From: an uncultured bacterium
GTDB lineage: Bacteria > CALINM01
Assembly (NCBI GenBank): GCA_938045315.1
Contig: CALINM010000022.1
Span: 1 to 10,883 of the forward strand
Reading direction: 5' to 3'
Length of the DNA stretch: 10,883 nt
In this document: one piece after another, positions 4,723 through 7,815 of the stretch
Position numbering within the stretch: position 1 is the first letter of the stretch
How the letters are laid out: each line of letters starts with the position of its first letter
The notes under the pieces: generated by a model
What the model was told of the DNA's origin: nothing
The model's input: the letters and a program-made list of their open reading frames with translations, nothing else
Databases searched by the model: none
Program-made: the position numbers and the translations under genes

Positions 4723-5445
4723 ATGATAGATGTTATCGGGAAACCTGCAAGTTTGCTTATAAATAATTTGAAGAGAAAATTTTATGGAAAAACTTTTTTC
4801 TGTCCCGTATGTCATCTCGAGCTATCCTTTCATGATGCTGATGAGGATGGTCTTTTGGTTTGTCCCCTATGCGGAATTGTTATCGAAATTACAGATGTTT
4901 TTGGACATCCTCTGCCAGTCGTCCATGATGTGGAGATAAAGAGGCATCAGCCTAAGATGAGGATTCATCCTCTTTCAACGCATTTACCAATCGGGCTTTA
5001 CCCCTTTGCTTTACTGGGCACACTATTTATTTTTTTCATCTCCCTTATCCAGCATATTTATTTAAAGAATGGATTTACCTTAGATGAGGAAATACTCTTA
5101 TACGTGCCTTCCATAAAGAAGATGTCTGATGTATTTCTTTTTCTTTCAGTAATTTTATCGACCATAACATTTGCCTCCGGTTATTATGACTGGTATATGC
5201 GGTATGAAAAACGAAAATATCGGATGATAACTGTTAAGATTTATTTTTCTTTGCTCTTTCTCATTCTGGGCTTACTATCCTTATTTCTACAAACAAGTGG
5301 TTTCATTTTTGGAGAAAATGGATTTTTAATGATTAATACTGTTAGTGTTCTTCTTTTTTGTTTGTACATTTTGTTAATGTTTACTAATATGTGTTTACTT
5401 ACTGCATTGGGGCATATAGGTGGTCTTCTTGTATTTGGAAAATAA
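4723..5445 (+). CDS. Rubredoxin-like ribbon plus DUF2231-like membrane protein
   Basis: This 240-residue protein has two parts. Residues 20-60 hold a four-cysteine ribbon, CPVC (27-30) and CPLCG (47-51), like two rubredoxin or zinc-ribbon knuckles but with a short 16-residue gap between them. Residues 82-240 hold four membrane segments (about 92-112, 135-155, 170-190, 203-225). They carry a HPLSTHLPIGL start, a GYYDW motif (153-157) and a closing HIGGLLV (231-237), the pattern I associate with DUF2231. The ribosome site AGAGG at 4711-4715 lies inside the end of the dehydrogenase gene, two bases separate the genes, and ATG 4723 is well spaced. Metal identity is open: Zn would be structural, Fe would make a one-electron carrier. 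A path for electrons from the acyl-CoA dehydrogenase toward the membrane is my inference. It appears to be a distant relative of the protein at 3006-3587. Confidence 0.65.
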   Translation: MIDVIGKPASLLINNLKRKFYGKTFFCPVCHLELSFHDADEDGLLVCPLCGIVIEITDVFGHPLPVVHDVEIKRHQPKMRIHPLSTHLPIGLYPFALLGTLFIFFISLIQHIYLKNGFTLDEEILLYVPSIKKMSDVFLFLSVILSTITFASGYYDWYMRYEKRKYRMITVKIYFSLLFLILGLLSLFLQTSGFIFGENGFLMINTVSVLLFCLYILLMFTNMCLLTALGHIGGLLVFGK

Positions 5446-6196: not shown

Positions 6197-6224
6197 TTGA
6201 CAAATTTGTATTTGCTGGTAATAT
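6197..6224 (+). promoter_or_regulatory. Strong promoter of the peptide cassette
   Basis: TTGACA (6197-6202) is a perfect -35. TAATAT (6219-6224), 16 bases on, is preceded by TG (6216-6217), so the -10 is extended. It is the most consensus-like promoter in the window. Transcription should begin near 6231, leaving a leader of about 25 bases that contains a full AAGGAGGTG ribosome site (6241-6249). Confidence 0.75.
6200..6209. repeat. Palindrome ACAAATTTGT overlapping the peptide promoter
   Basis: A perfect 10-base palindrome starts on the last bases of the -35 and fills the first half of the spacer. Its position would let a bound dimeric regulator block polymerase, so it is a candidate operator. 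It is short and AT-rich, so chance is a real alternative. Confidence 0.3.
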
Positions 6225-6254
6225 TAGCTTATGGAATAAAAAGGAGGTGTTAAT

Positions 6255-6317
6255 ATGAAGATTAAAAAAGTAAAAAAGATAGTTAGAGGTCTTTGTAAGT
6301 GCAAGAGTTCCTGCTAA
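6255..6317 (+). CDS. 20-residue Cys-rich peptide, putative RiPP precursor
   Basis: The whole product is MKIKKVKKIVRGLCKCKSSC. The gene is very short but its signals are excellent. A near-consensus promoter lies about 55 bases upstream, a full AGGAGGT Shine-Dalgarno (6242-6248) sits 6 bases before the ATG, and a terminator follows the stop. The N-terminal half is strongly basic (six Lys and one Arg in the first 11 residues), and Gly12 separates it from a Leu-Cys-Lys-Cys-Lys-Ser-Ser-Cys tail. Two genes downstream lies a radical-SAM/SPASM enzyme with a PqqD-like peptide-binding domain, the usual partner of such precursors. By inference the basic part is the leader and Cys14, Cys16 and Cys20 are modified, perhaps to thioethers as in ranthipeptides and sactipeptides. 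A product held as a metal ligand or redox cofactor is also possible. The Cys-x-Cys-x3-Cys tail is reminiscent of short clostridial Cys-rich rSAM substrates, but I do not recognise the family. The alternative, a regulatory leader peptide, is considered under the findings. Confidence 0.75.
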   Translation: MKIKKVKKIVRGLCKCKSSC

Positions 6318-6347
6318 TACTAAGCTAATTTATCTTTCCATGGGAAG

Positions 6348-6377
6348 AGGGGGTATTTTACACCCCCTTATTTTTTT
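6348..6377 (+). terminator. Intra-operon terminator between the peptide and downstream genes
   Basis: AGGGGGT (6348-6354) pairs perfectly with ACCCCCT (6362-6368) around a seven-base loop. The tail TATTTTTTT runs to 6377. The ATG of the next gene is at 6378, with no base in between. Partial read-through would give a large excess of peptide message over enzyme message, a familiar device in RiPP operons. Confidence 0.85.
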
Positions 6378-6692
6378 ATGAAGTTCATTTGTAGAAAGTA
6401 TTGCATGTATTATAAAGAAAATAAGAAGGATGAGAAGGGGTGCTATCCTATTTCATTGATAAAAAAGATGCCTGTTTACTATTTTCCTCAGGAGAGTTTT
6501 AAGCATACAACTGATTTTGATATGCTAAAATCCATACTTTGTCCCAATTGTGATTATCAGAAAAATGATTGTGATTTTCAGCAGGAAAGTAATCCAGGTC
6601 CGCCATGTGGAGGATATATATATTTCCAGCATATTCTTTCTAAAGGCTTAATTGACATTGATGATATTAGACGGATTTGTGAGATTATCTGA
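6378..6692 (+). CDS. Small eight-cysteine protein, probable partner of the radical-SAM maturase
   Basis: I do not recognise a named family for this 104-residue protein. Cysteines are at 5, 9, 22, 55, 58, 65, 77 and 101. Two clusters are plain: C5-x3-C9 near the start, and CPNCDYQKNDCDF (55-67) followed by PPCGGY (75-80). The number and spacing suggest an Fe-S or zinc-binding protein. No membrane segment or signal peptide is present, so it should be cytoplasmic. ATG 6378 directly follows a terminator T-run and lacks any ribosome site, so expression should be low. Cys5 and Cys9 favour this start over the later Met10. The end overlaps the radical-SAM start by 32 bases (6661-6692), which indicates translational coupling and a shared task. 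Possible jobs are electron delivery to the maturase, docking of the peptide, or being a second substrate. None is proven. Confidence 0.7.
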   Translation: MKFICRKYCMYYKENKKDEKGCYPISLIKKMPVYYFPQESFKHTTDFDMLKSILCPNCDYQKNDCDFQQESNPGPPCGGYIYFQHILSKGLIDIDDIRRICEII

Positions 6693-7815
6693 CCATTTTA
6701 TTCCAAAAAAGCTTGAAAAGACTTATCTTCTTGATAAAAAGAGTGATGAGTTGTACGAGCTTAATGAGGAGGCATTTAATTTTATATTAAATTGTGATGG
6801 CACAAAACAACTGTCCCACTTAAATCCACCAAAAAGATTTTTCAAGACCCTACTAAAAAACTCAATTATTGAAATTATTAAGAAGAGGAAGAGAAGAAAA
6901 TTCATAATTTTTAACCCTCCCTTTCCAACCCTTAGATATTTAGAAATCCAATTAACAAGTAAGTGCAATCTTATGTGTCTTCACTGCTATCAGGGTGAAA
7001 AAAAGGAGACGGAGATTCCCTTTATACTTTTAAAAAAAGTTTTGCAGGAATTTATAAAATTACAGGGAATAAGGTTGATTTTATCGGGCGGAGAACCATT
7101 ATTATATTCTCATTTTCAAGAGCTGAATAGTTATCTTAAGGGATATCCGGCAAGGGTAGTTTTGCTAACAAATGGCACATTATTAGACAAACTGGATTTG
7201 GGGGGATTAAATATTGATGAGATTCAAATAAGTCTTGACGGGATTGAACATGGTCACGATTTCATAAGGGGTAAAGGCACTTTCAAGAAAGTAATTAAAA
7301 ACATTGAAAAACTAAGAAAAAATACTAACATTGATATTTCAATAGCAACTATGATTCATAAAGAAAATCTAAAAGAGTTTAAGGAAATGAAAAAATTAAT
7401 AAAAGAATTTAACATAAAGGAATGGGGAATAGATTTTCCGGTGGTTACAGGTAATTTAAGCTTGAATAAAAGTATAGTACCATCTCTTAATGATGCTATT
7501 AGCTGTTTTAAATATAGATTTGGAGCAAGTTTTCATTCAACAGAGGAAAATTATGAGTATGGATGTGGAACTCATTTAATGACCCTTACGCCAGATGGTA
7601 AATTTTTACCCTGTGGATTTTTTCAGGATAGGGTTTATGGTAGAATTGAAAAGGGATTGTTTAATGCTGTGCAAAATAGAAGATTAATCAGACTCTCTGA
7701 AATTGAGGAGTGCTGTAATTGTGTCTATTTAAGGGAGTGTGGAGGGGGATGCAGATATCGAGCGGGAGGAATAGAAAAAAAAGATGCCATTATGTGTAAA
7801 ATTTTTGGTTTCTAA
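6661..7815 (+). CDS. PqqD-like/radical-SAM/SPASM peptide maturase
   Basis: The protein is 384 residues from ATG 6661; TTG 6652 is also in frame but less likely. Residues about 5-75 look like a PqqD/RRE peptide-binding domain (FVRLSDHFIPKK, then YLLDKKSDELYELNEEAFNF and NCDGT). The radical-SAM core follows, with C102-x3-C106-x2-C109 for the [4Fe-4S] cluster, LSGGEPLL (141-148) for S-adenosylmethionine and IQISLDGIE (189-197). The C-terminal SPASM domain is complete: C302-x10-G-x4-C318, then C351-x2-C354-x5-C360-x3-C364 and C379, enough for two auxiliary clusters. Enzymes of this build install thioether, C-C or similar crosslinks on ribosomal peptides, with the fused RRE binding the leader. The peptide at 6255-6317 is the obvious substrate. 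It overlaps the eight-Cys gene and is the last gene of the cassette. The exact chemistry cannot be read from the sequence. Confidence 0.9.
   Translation: MILDGFVRLSDHFIPKKLEKTYLLDKKSDELYELNEEAFNFILNCDGTKQLSHLNPPKRFFKTLLKNSIIEIIKKRKRRKFIIFNPPFPTLRYLEIQLTSKCNLMCLHCYQGEKKETEIPFILLKKVLQEFIKLQGIRLILSGGEPLLYSHFQELNSYLKGYPARVVLLTNGTLLDKLDLGGLNIDEIQISLDGIEHGHDFIRGKGTFKKVIKNIEKLRKNTNIDISIATMIHKENLKEFKEMKKLIKEFNIKEWGIDFPVVTGNLSLNKSIVPSLNDAISCFKYRFGASFHSTEENYEYGCGTHLMTLTPDGKFLPCGFFQDRVYGRIEKGLFNAVQNRRLIRLSEIEECCNCVYLRECGGGCRYRAGGIEKKDAIMCKIFGF

Follow-up and report, generated by a model that had tools for sequence, protein, structure and literature searches.

The window, i.e. the whole stretch of 10,883 nt that was analysed, carries a compact cassette on its forward strand. 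All elements named in the preliminary description of this DNA were recovered, and in the order given there: promoter, ribosome site, peptide gene, terminator, eight-Cys open reading frame (ORF) and radical-SAM/SPASM ORF. The features are as follows.

6197-6224, + strand: promoter-like sequence TTGACA-16-TAATAT, 10 of 12 matches
6241-6249, + strand: ribosome-binding site AAGGAGGTG
6255-6317, + strand: precursor peptide gene, ATG to TAA, 20 codons, encoding MKIKKVKKIVRGLCKCKSSC
6347-6369 (hairpin), T-run to about 6379, + strand: intrinsic terminator in the gap between the peptide gene and the C8-enzyme genes
6378-6692, + strand: C8, Cys-rich partner protein of 104 aa with a PCGG motif and seven invariant Cys
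6661-7815, + strand: radical-SAM/SPASM maturase with a predicted N-terminal RiPP-recognition-element (RRE) fold; the longest ORF runs from TTG 6652

The ribosome site proposed earlier indeed precedes the ATG at 6255, and the 20-codon gene behind it encodes the Cys-bearing peptide that had been claimed, with a basic, beta-branched leader (residues 1-8) and a C-terminal core, C14-K-C16-x-S-S-C20. The peptide pattern has one match in the window and none in 200 shuffles. Promoter-like sites number 13 in the region and 12.0 in shuffled sequence, hence the promoter is weak evidence on its own; its TTGACA is kept in a genus-mate. The terminator on its own does not rise above the shuffles either (1 found, 1.2 expected), and its position is the same in relatives. 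The eight-Cys protein was likewise found, and in relatives seven of the eight Cys, along with the PCGG motif, are invariant. For the enzyme the ATG at 6661 is the likely start, since the nearest relative has its ATG at the same place in the alignment; from this start the enzyme gene overlaps the C8 gene by 32 nt. The T-run of the terminator (to about 6380) meets the next start codon without an obvious Shine-Dalgarno sequence, and a T-run straight into the start codon of C8 or the enzyme was also observed in L112, L137 and L033 (near 9380). The abutting T-run suggests that the maturase may be expressed at a low level, by read-through.

The other neighbours in the window, a YggS-type protein and a DksA-like protein, are uninformative on metals. 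At 4723-5445 the window encodes a zinc-ribbon and DUF2231-like membrane protein that the genus-mate retains ahead of its own cassette, and at 158-991 a caspase-like (C14/metacaspase-type) domain was recognised by eye, with AGHG and DTCHSGG motifs.

In the group to which the window belongs, the trio of peptide, Cys-rich gene and enzyme was present in all three genomes examined, the peptides of the relatives, MKIKKVKKMVKGLCKCKSSC and MKVKKVTKVSKGLCKCKSSC, each being encoded 5' of the Cys-rich gene and the enzyme. Every close relative examined has the peptide. A distant enzyme (G044, 41% identity) is followed immediately 3' by MKIRKIAKSASITCKCKSSC, and five more enzyme loci from the homology search each have a 20-residue peptide (MKIRKISKSSASTCKCKSSC, MKIRKVTKKAGITCKCKASC, MKIKKVVKTSNGLCKCKSSC, MKVKKVVKKSSGLCKCGSSC and MKLVKVSKKSRGLCKCCSSC). 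These first nine peptides were located next to enzymes found by homology only, with no peptide pattern in use.

A single-sequence search of genome contigs with the window enzyme gave no match; a degenerate DNA pattern for the peptide, with a free gap of 15-33 nt and other lengths permitted, succeeded instead. The pattern recovers all nine homology-located peptides and matches at least 116 stretches in public genome contigs. Among the matches listed 114 genes are in frame, every one of exactly 20 codons, and a Shine-Dalgarno-like motif stands ahead of 113 of these 114; counted overall, all 122 peptide genes have 20 codons, despite the freedom in the pattern. It should be kept in mind that the pattern imposes K2, C14, K15, C16, S/T19 and C20 and limits some leader positions, so that conservation there is partly built in, while length, positions 7-13 and position 17 were left free. 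TCN as well as AGY codons are used for Ser18 and Ser19, and synonymous variation is also seen at the Cys and Lys codons; such codon usage argues for selection acting on the predicted peptide. The gene is conserved in many bacterial groups, most of them anaerobic, and in some archaea; among the matches listed are Desulfobacterota, Nitrospirota, Syntrophaceae, Nitrospinae, Archaeoglobus and Methanoperedenaceae, along with metagenome-assembled genomes (MAGs) labelled Rokubacteria, Poribacteria, Thermoleophilia and Bacillota. In viral contigs the same pattern gave six matches only, out of frame and attributable to chance.

Matches in L059, L120, L093 and L118 were discarded as chance, the ribosome site being absent or the match out of frame. 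A Methanoperedenaceae peptide, MKITKVKKITRGTCKCGRTC (L090 7123-7185), has a ribosome site, and the family enzyme was not found in the assembly of L090; the radical-SAM gene adjoining the Methanoperedenaceae peptide is of heme-biosynthesis type by eye and was not counted. In L129 (5183-5430, in peptide orientation) two 20-residue peptides, CKCKSSC (K17) and CKCHSSC (H17), stand in tandem with one C8-enzyme pair behind them, and genes for a Cu/Zn exporter and a metal-chelate ABC transporter are close by. Peptide, C8 and enzyme are also found together in locus L134 of a cultured species, Desulfocarbo indianensis.

The pairing of peptide and enzyme was examined in an independent sample of 386 genomes spread over families, with an enzyme profile from alignment A4 for which true members have E<1e-100. 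Such members were found in 18 of the 386 genomes; one further weak match, in G377, is partial (E 5e-42) and was not accepted into the family. The exact peptide pattern occurs in 15 genomes, all 15 of them enzyme-positive. G299 and G303 have peptides adjacent to the enzyme that are one substitution from the pattern (MVIRKVSKKGATTCKCKGSC and LKIKKIKKRAKGLCKCSSNC, respectively), and in the closed genome G282 the peptide MKLVKVRKESRGLCKCASKC is encoded at another site than the enzyme, which resolves an apparent counter-example. All 18 enzyme-bearing genomes in the sample accordingly have the 20-residue peptide. By the exact pattern none of the 368 enzyme-negative genomes has it, relaxed forms not having been run on these 368, and the reversed-pattern control gave no matches in the 386 genomes. 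Where peptide genes are solitary, the enzyme is encoded elsewhere in 29 of 34 genomes among the matches listed; the five without it are mostly draft MAGs, and one is an archaeon. Certain genomes carry two or three peptide copies.

Absence of the short ORF near close homologues, or loss of its Cys codons, had been named beforehand as what would refute the proposal. Neither was seen: the 18 of 18 genomes retain the peptide with all three Cys and identical length, hence a precursor/maturase pair of RiPP type is well supported by these comparisons. A small precursor gene tied genetically to a modifying enzyme, as a RiPP requires, is present, and the two are adjacent in most enzyme loci.

As expected of a radical-SAM RiPP enzyme, the CxxxCxxC motif (C95, C99 and C102) is invariant in 46 sequences, as are the SPASM Cys C295, C311, C344, C347, C353, C357 and C372. 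The fused PqqD-like domain of the preliminary description fared unevenly. Pfam barely detects it, in only 2 of 46 relatives with a best E of 0.035, and sequence models are too weak here; in the AlphaFold model of the enzyme (pLDDT 94) residues 6-59 adopt the βββ-ααα RiPP-recognition fold. An RRE is defined as a βββ-ααα winged helix (PMC12710340), which the model satisfies. Structurally the model is closest to SuiB in complex with its precursor (Z 26.7, rmsd 3.9, 353 aligned, residues 1-377), then to SkfB (Z 26.2, rmsd 4.8, 326 aligned, residues 4-365), CteB and anSME; the SuiB and SkfB matches span almost the entire chain, N-terminus included. In so far as the model holds, the matches to SuiB and SkfB support N-terminal leader binding and thioether- or carbon-link chemistry, without showing either.

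C8 gave no match in Pfam, among PDB sequences or among PDB folds, which is no proof that its fold is new; its predicted structure is confident and all-helical (pLDDT 88). Among the matches listed it lies beside 46 of 55 enzyme-bearing peptide loci, and in several genomes it is fused to the N-terminus of the enzyme (L054, L069, L112, L141, L145 and L146 among others). A small cupin-like protein, recognised by eye and without a Pfam match, accompanies 24 of these 55 loci and a second radical-SAM/SPASM protein 12 of them, again among the matches listed. Both are common next to Desulfobacterota loci, and neither has a good match in the window's genome, hence they were rejected as parts of the minimal system. 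The cupin-like protein (HACYxIYGxLxPGE) was observed in L148 (4642-4983, - strand) and L145 and is fused to C8 in L075, L107 and L124; the second radical-SAM/SPASM protein (IQFYPTxRCNxSCxFCFN) adjoins the cassette in L051, L055, L080, L082, L089, L142 and L148, and neither of two that were tested reached any NCBIfam equivalog cut-off.

In a tree of 42 enzymes the peptide gene precedes the enzyme gene in 27 cases and follows it in 15, the arrangement having changed only twice; GLC-type peptides go with the upstream arrangement and TC-type peptides with the downstream one. By a strict scan a strong terminator separates the peptide gene from C8 or the enzyme in 26 of 111 loci among the matches listed, against 1.6 expected, and this recurrence suggests that more peptide than enzyme may be made. 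Among the neighbours of peptide and enzyme genes no recurring peptide exporter or peptidase was seen. Taken together, the comparisons show, as far as sequence can, that the 20-codon gene is real, that selection acts on the sequence of its peptide, and that it is coupled to one radical-SAM/SPASM family, usually with the Cys-rich helper C8.

Copper-type neighbours were found at 12 of 15 peptides with His or Tyr at position 17 against 5 of 97 others (among the matches listed; Fisher p 5.5e-10); the marker genes were picked post hoc and the lineages are not independent. In Nitrospirota the neighbours of such CKCHSSC peptides are Cu P-type ATPases, YHS-thioredoxin-reductase-like proteins, SHOCT proteins and Met-rich secreted proteins, and an SO_0444 Cu/Zn exporter adjoins several Desulfarculaceae loci, among which is L129 with its tandem K17 and H17 peptides; the Cu P-type ATPase and the SO_0444 exporter score over the NCBIfam cut-offs. 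In three lineages (G044, G060 and G061) the enzyme lies within a NifU-DsrE-IscS-IscU-TusA operon, and further neighbours include SOD, ferritin-like proteins, a pyridine-nucleotide-disulfide reductase and rhodanese. The metal link is strong in some lineages only. Because of the CKCHSSC copper operons and the IscS-IscU-TusA operon in three lineages, a role in metal or sulfur handling is the leading but unproven guess. An ICMT/PEMT-type membrane methyltransferase was observed near Cys-ending CKCHSSC peptides (L078 2703-3341 and its cluster mates in L127 and L135), possibly by coincidence.

The statement that the system matches no named class was upheld by NCBIfam, Pfam and the searchable literature. 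No NCBIfam model reached its cut-off for the window enzyme or the 46 relatives, and the motif strings had no exact match in the searchable literature, which mostly leaves out subscription papers and bioRxiv; a prior description is possible. Its nearest known parallels are the following. Like the PQQ (PqqA/PqqE/PqqD) and mycofactocin (MftA/MftC) systems, the present one combines a very short precursor with a radical-SAM/SPASM enzyme with PqqD-type recognition. Strict co-occurrence, a conserved C-terminus and absence of a dedicated exporter are also common to all, and correspond to Haft's 'cofactor grammar' (PMC3023750); PqqA averages 23 aa (PMC3023750). In contrast to both, the core here has three Cys in place of Glu-Tyr or Val-Tyr, the length of the precursor is fixed at 20 residues, and there is a Cys-rich partner of unknown fold. 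Membership is not met, as no PqqE or mycofactocin model reached its cut-off (mycofactocin model: window enzyme 72 against 265 bits; best E among relatives about 1e-28).

The sactipeptide and ranthipeptide maturases SkfB, CteB/SCIFF and PapB, along with the fold relative SuiB, share the RRE, radical-SAM and full SPASM build, and SkfB, CteB and PapB likewise act on Cys-containing substrates. They differ in that identity is only about 20%, the precursor here is less than half as long as SCIFF, and a transporter and protease are absent. The window enzyme is below the cut-offs of the curated SCIFF, PapB, StsB and AlbA models (PapB: 64 against 340 bits), and the best E values of the 46 relatives are far off. 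The SbtA/SbtM thio(seleno)oxazole system also pairs a small precursor with a radical-SAM/SPASM maturase, and there is weak leader similarity to SbtA (TIGR04081, residues 1-14, E 0.099). The resemblance fails across the family, with E about 0.1 in only 3 of 38 peptides, and membership is not met (TIGR04081 12.4 against 30.5 bits; TIGR04082, SbtM, 57.6 against 350). GeoRSP is a radical-SAM/SPASM enzyme with a PqqD-type protein, as in the present system; the window enzyme scores only 59.5 with its model, against a cut-off of 400. Bufferins, oxazolins and methanobactins, the MNIO copper RiPPs, resemble the present peptides as Cys-based peptides in copper homeostasis, and their precursor genes may sit away from their enzyme (PMC12452194). 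These are made by MNIO/DUF692 enzymes from longer precursors that mostly have Sec signal peptides, whereas here the enzyme is of radical-SAM type and a signal peptide is absent. No MNIO/DUF692 enzyme was found among the window proteins tested; the neighbours in relatives were not exhaustively scanned.

Several other explanations have to be weighed. With three Cys codons and then a terminator immediately ahead of Cys-rich and Fe-S genes, the short ORF could be a functionless Cys-sensing leader peptide, where ribosome stalling at the Cys codons controls the terminator and hence the C8-enzyme operon. We find this very doubtful, since an attenuation leader has to lie upstream of the gene it regulates, and the peptide is downstream of the enzyme in one whole major clade (15 of 42 tree loci) and in many cases solitary, elsewhere in the genome; these copies largely refute it already, and the N-terminal residues and exact length are moreover conserved alongside synonymous codon change. 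That the pairing reflects shared taxonomy and no substrate-enzyme relation is scarcely credible. Desulfobacterota and Nitrospirota are the groups where the two genes are commonest, but the pair is also present in Archaeoglobus and in MAGs labelled Thermoleophilia, Rokubacteria and Poribacteria, the sampled enzyme-negative genomes lack the peptide, and most enzyme loci have the two genes side by side.

The small peptide may instead bind metal or serve as a chaperone without being modified, much like a metallothionein, with the enzyme and C8 acting on another target in the same process; CxCxxxC is plausible as a metal-binding motif, and the CKCHSSC variants are located in copper operons. Its co-occurrence, in 18 of 18 genomes, with a single enzyme that bears an RRE fold and is of peptide-modifying type, and the presence of this enzyme in most solitary-peptide genomes, make this improbable without making it negligible. 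The nearest solved structures suggest an exported RiPP, i.e. a bacteriocin or signal akin to sactipeptides or ranthipeptides, with the genes for its transporter and protease at another site, as SuiB, SkfB and CteB are maturases of such RiPPs. We hold it to be quite improbable: the core is near-invariant across phyla and archaea, unlike that of arms-race peptides, conserved export or peptidase genes are absent alongside, and copies lie in metal and Fe-S operons.

The reading as a RiPP is thus supported at the level of the genes, by comparative data and not by any demonstration of chemistry. We consider it probable that the cassette makes an undescribed family of radical-SAM RiPP-like peptides, the modification itself not having been observed. 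In the scheme we infer, residues 1-8 (M-K-[IV]-[KR]-K-[VI]-x-[KR]) would bind as an extra beta strand to the RiPP-recognition domain at the N-terminus of the enzyme, and the C-terminal C-K-C-x-[SRG]-S-C would enter the active site. There at least one sulfur-to-carbon link at the three Cys would probably be formed by the radical-SAM cluster together with two auxiliary clusters of the SPASM domain. C8 would probably supply or hold an Fe-S cluster, metal or the substrate. The peptide would be overproduced from its own promoter-terminator unit and the enzyme made via read-through, and additional peptide copies at other genomic sites are apparently modified in trans.

Further, because no export or leader-peptidase gene accompanies the cassette and extra copies are apparently modified in trans, the product is probably retained intracellularly, where it would serve as a thiolate ligand for metal or as a redox or sulfur cofactor, copper/zinc and Fe-S or persulfide handling being the leading candidate uses. 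Most likely the peptide carries a thiol-based modification and remains inside the cell, exporters or peptidases encoded elsewhere not being excluded. The gene contexts agree with the earlier suggestion of a cofactor or metal ligand used inside the cell, which remains an inference, with neither product nor function shown; an intracellular thiol or metal role is the simplest common theme, and is not demonstrated. More tentatively, and at somewhat less than even chances, we speculate by analogy with PqqA that the last seven residues are the source of a cofactor or metal ligand that is widespread and so far undescribed. This would be common to sulfate reducers, Nitrospirota and some archaea, with specialised CKCHSSC copies located in copper operons and matured in trans by one radical-SAM enzyme.

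As the conserved 20-codon gene is missed by normal gene calling, the substrate of this radical-SAM/SPASM family stayed hidden; with the substrate named, the chemistry of the enzyme becomes directly testable. If true, the finding would parallel the recognition of mycofactocin from a short peptide and a radical-SAM gene. If the product proves to be a cofactor or metal ligand that these organisms share, it would add a new component to the copper/zinc or Fe-S/persulfide physiology of anaerobes of environmental importance and their relatives, i.e. the sulfate reducers, Nitrospirota and Archaeoglobus.
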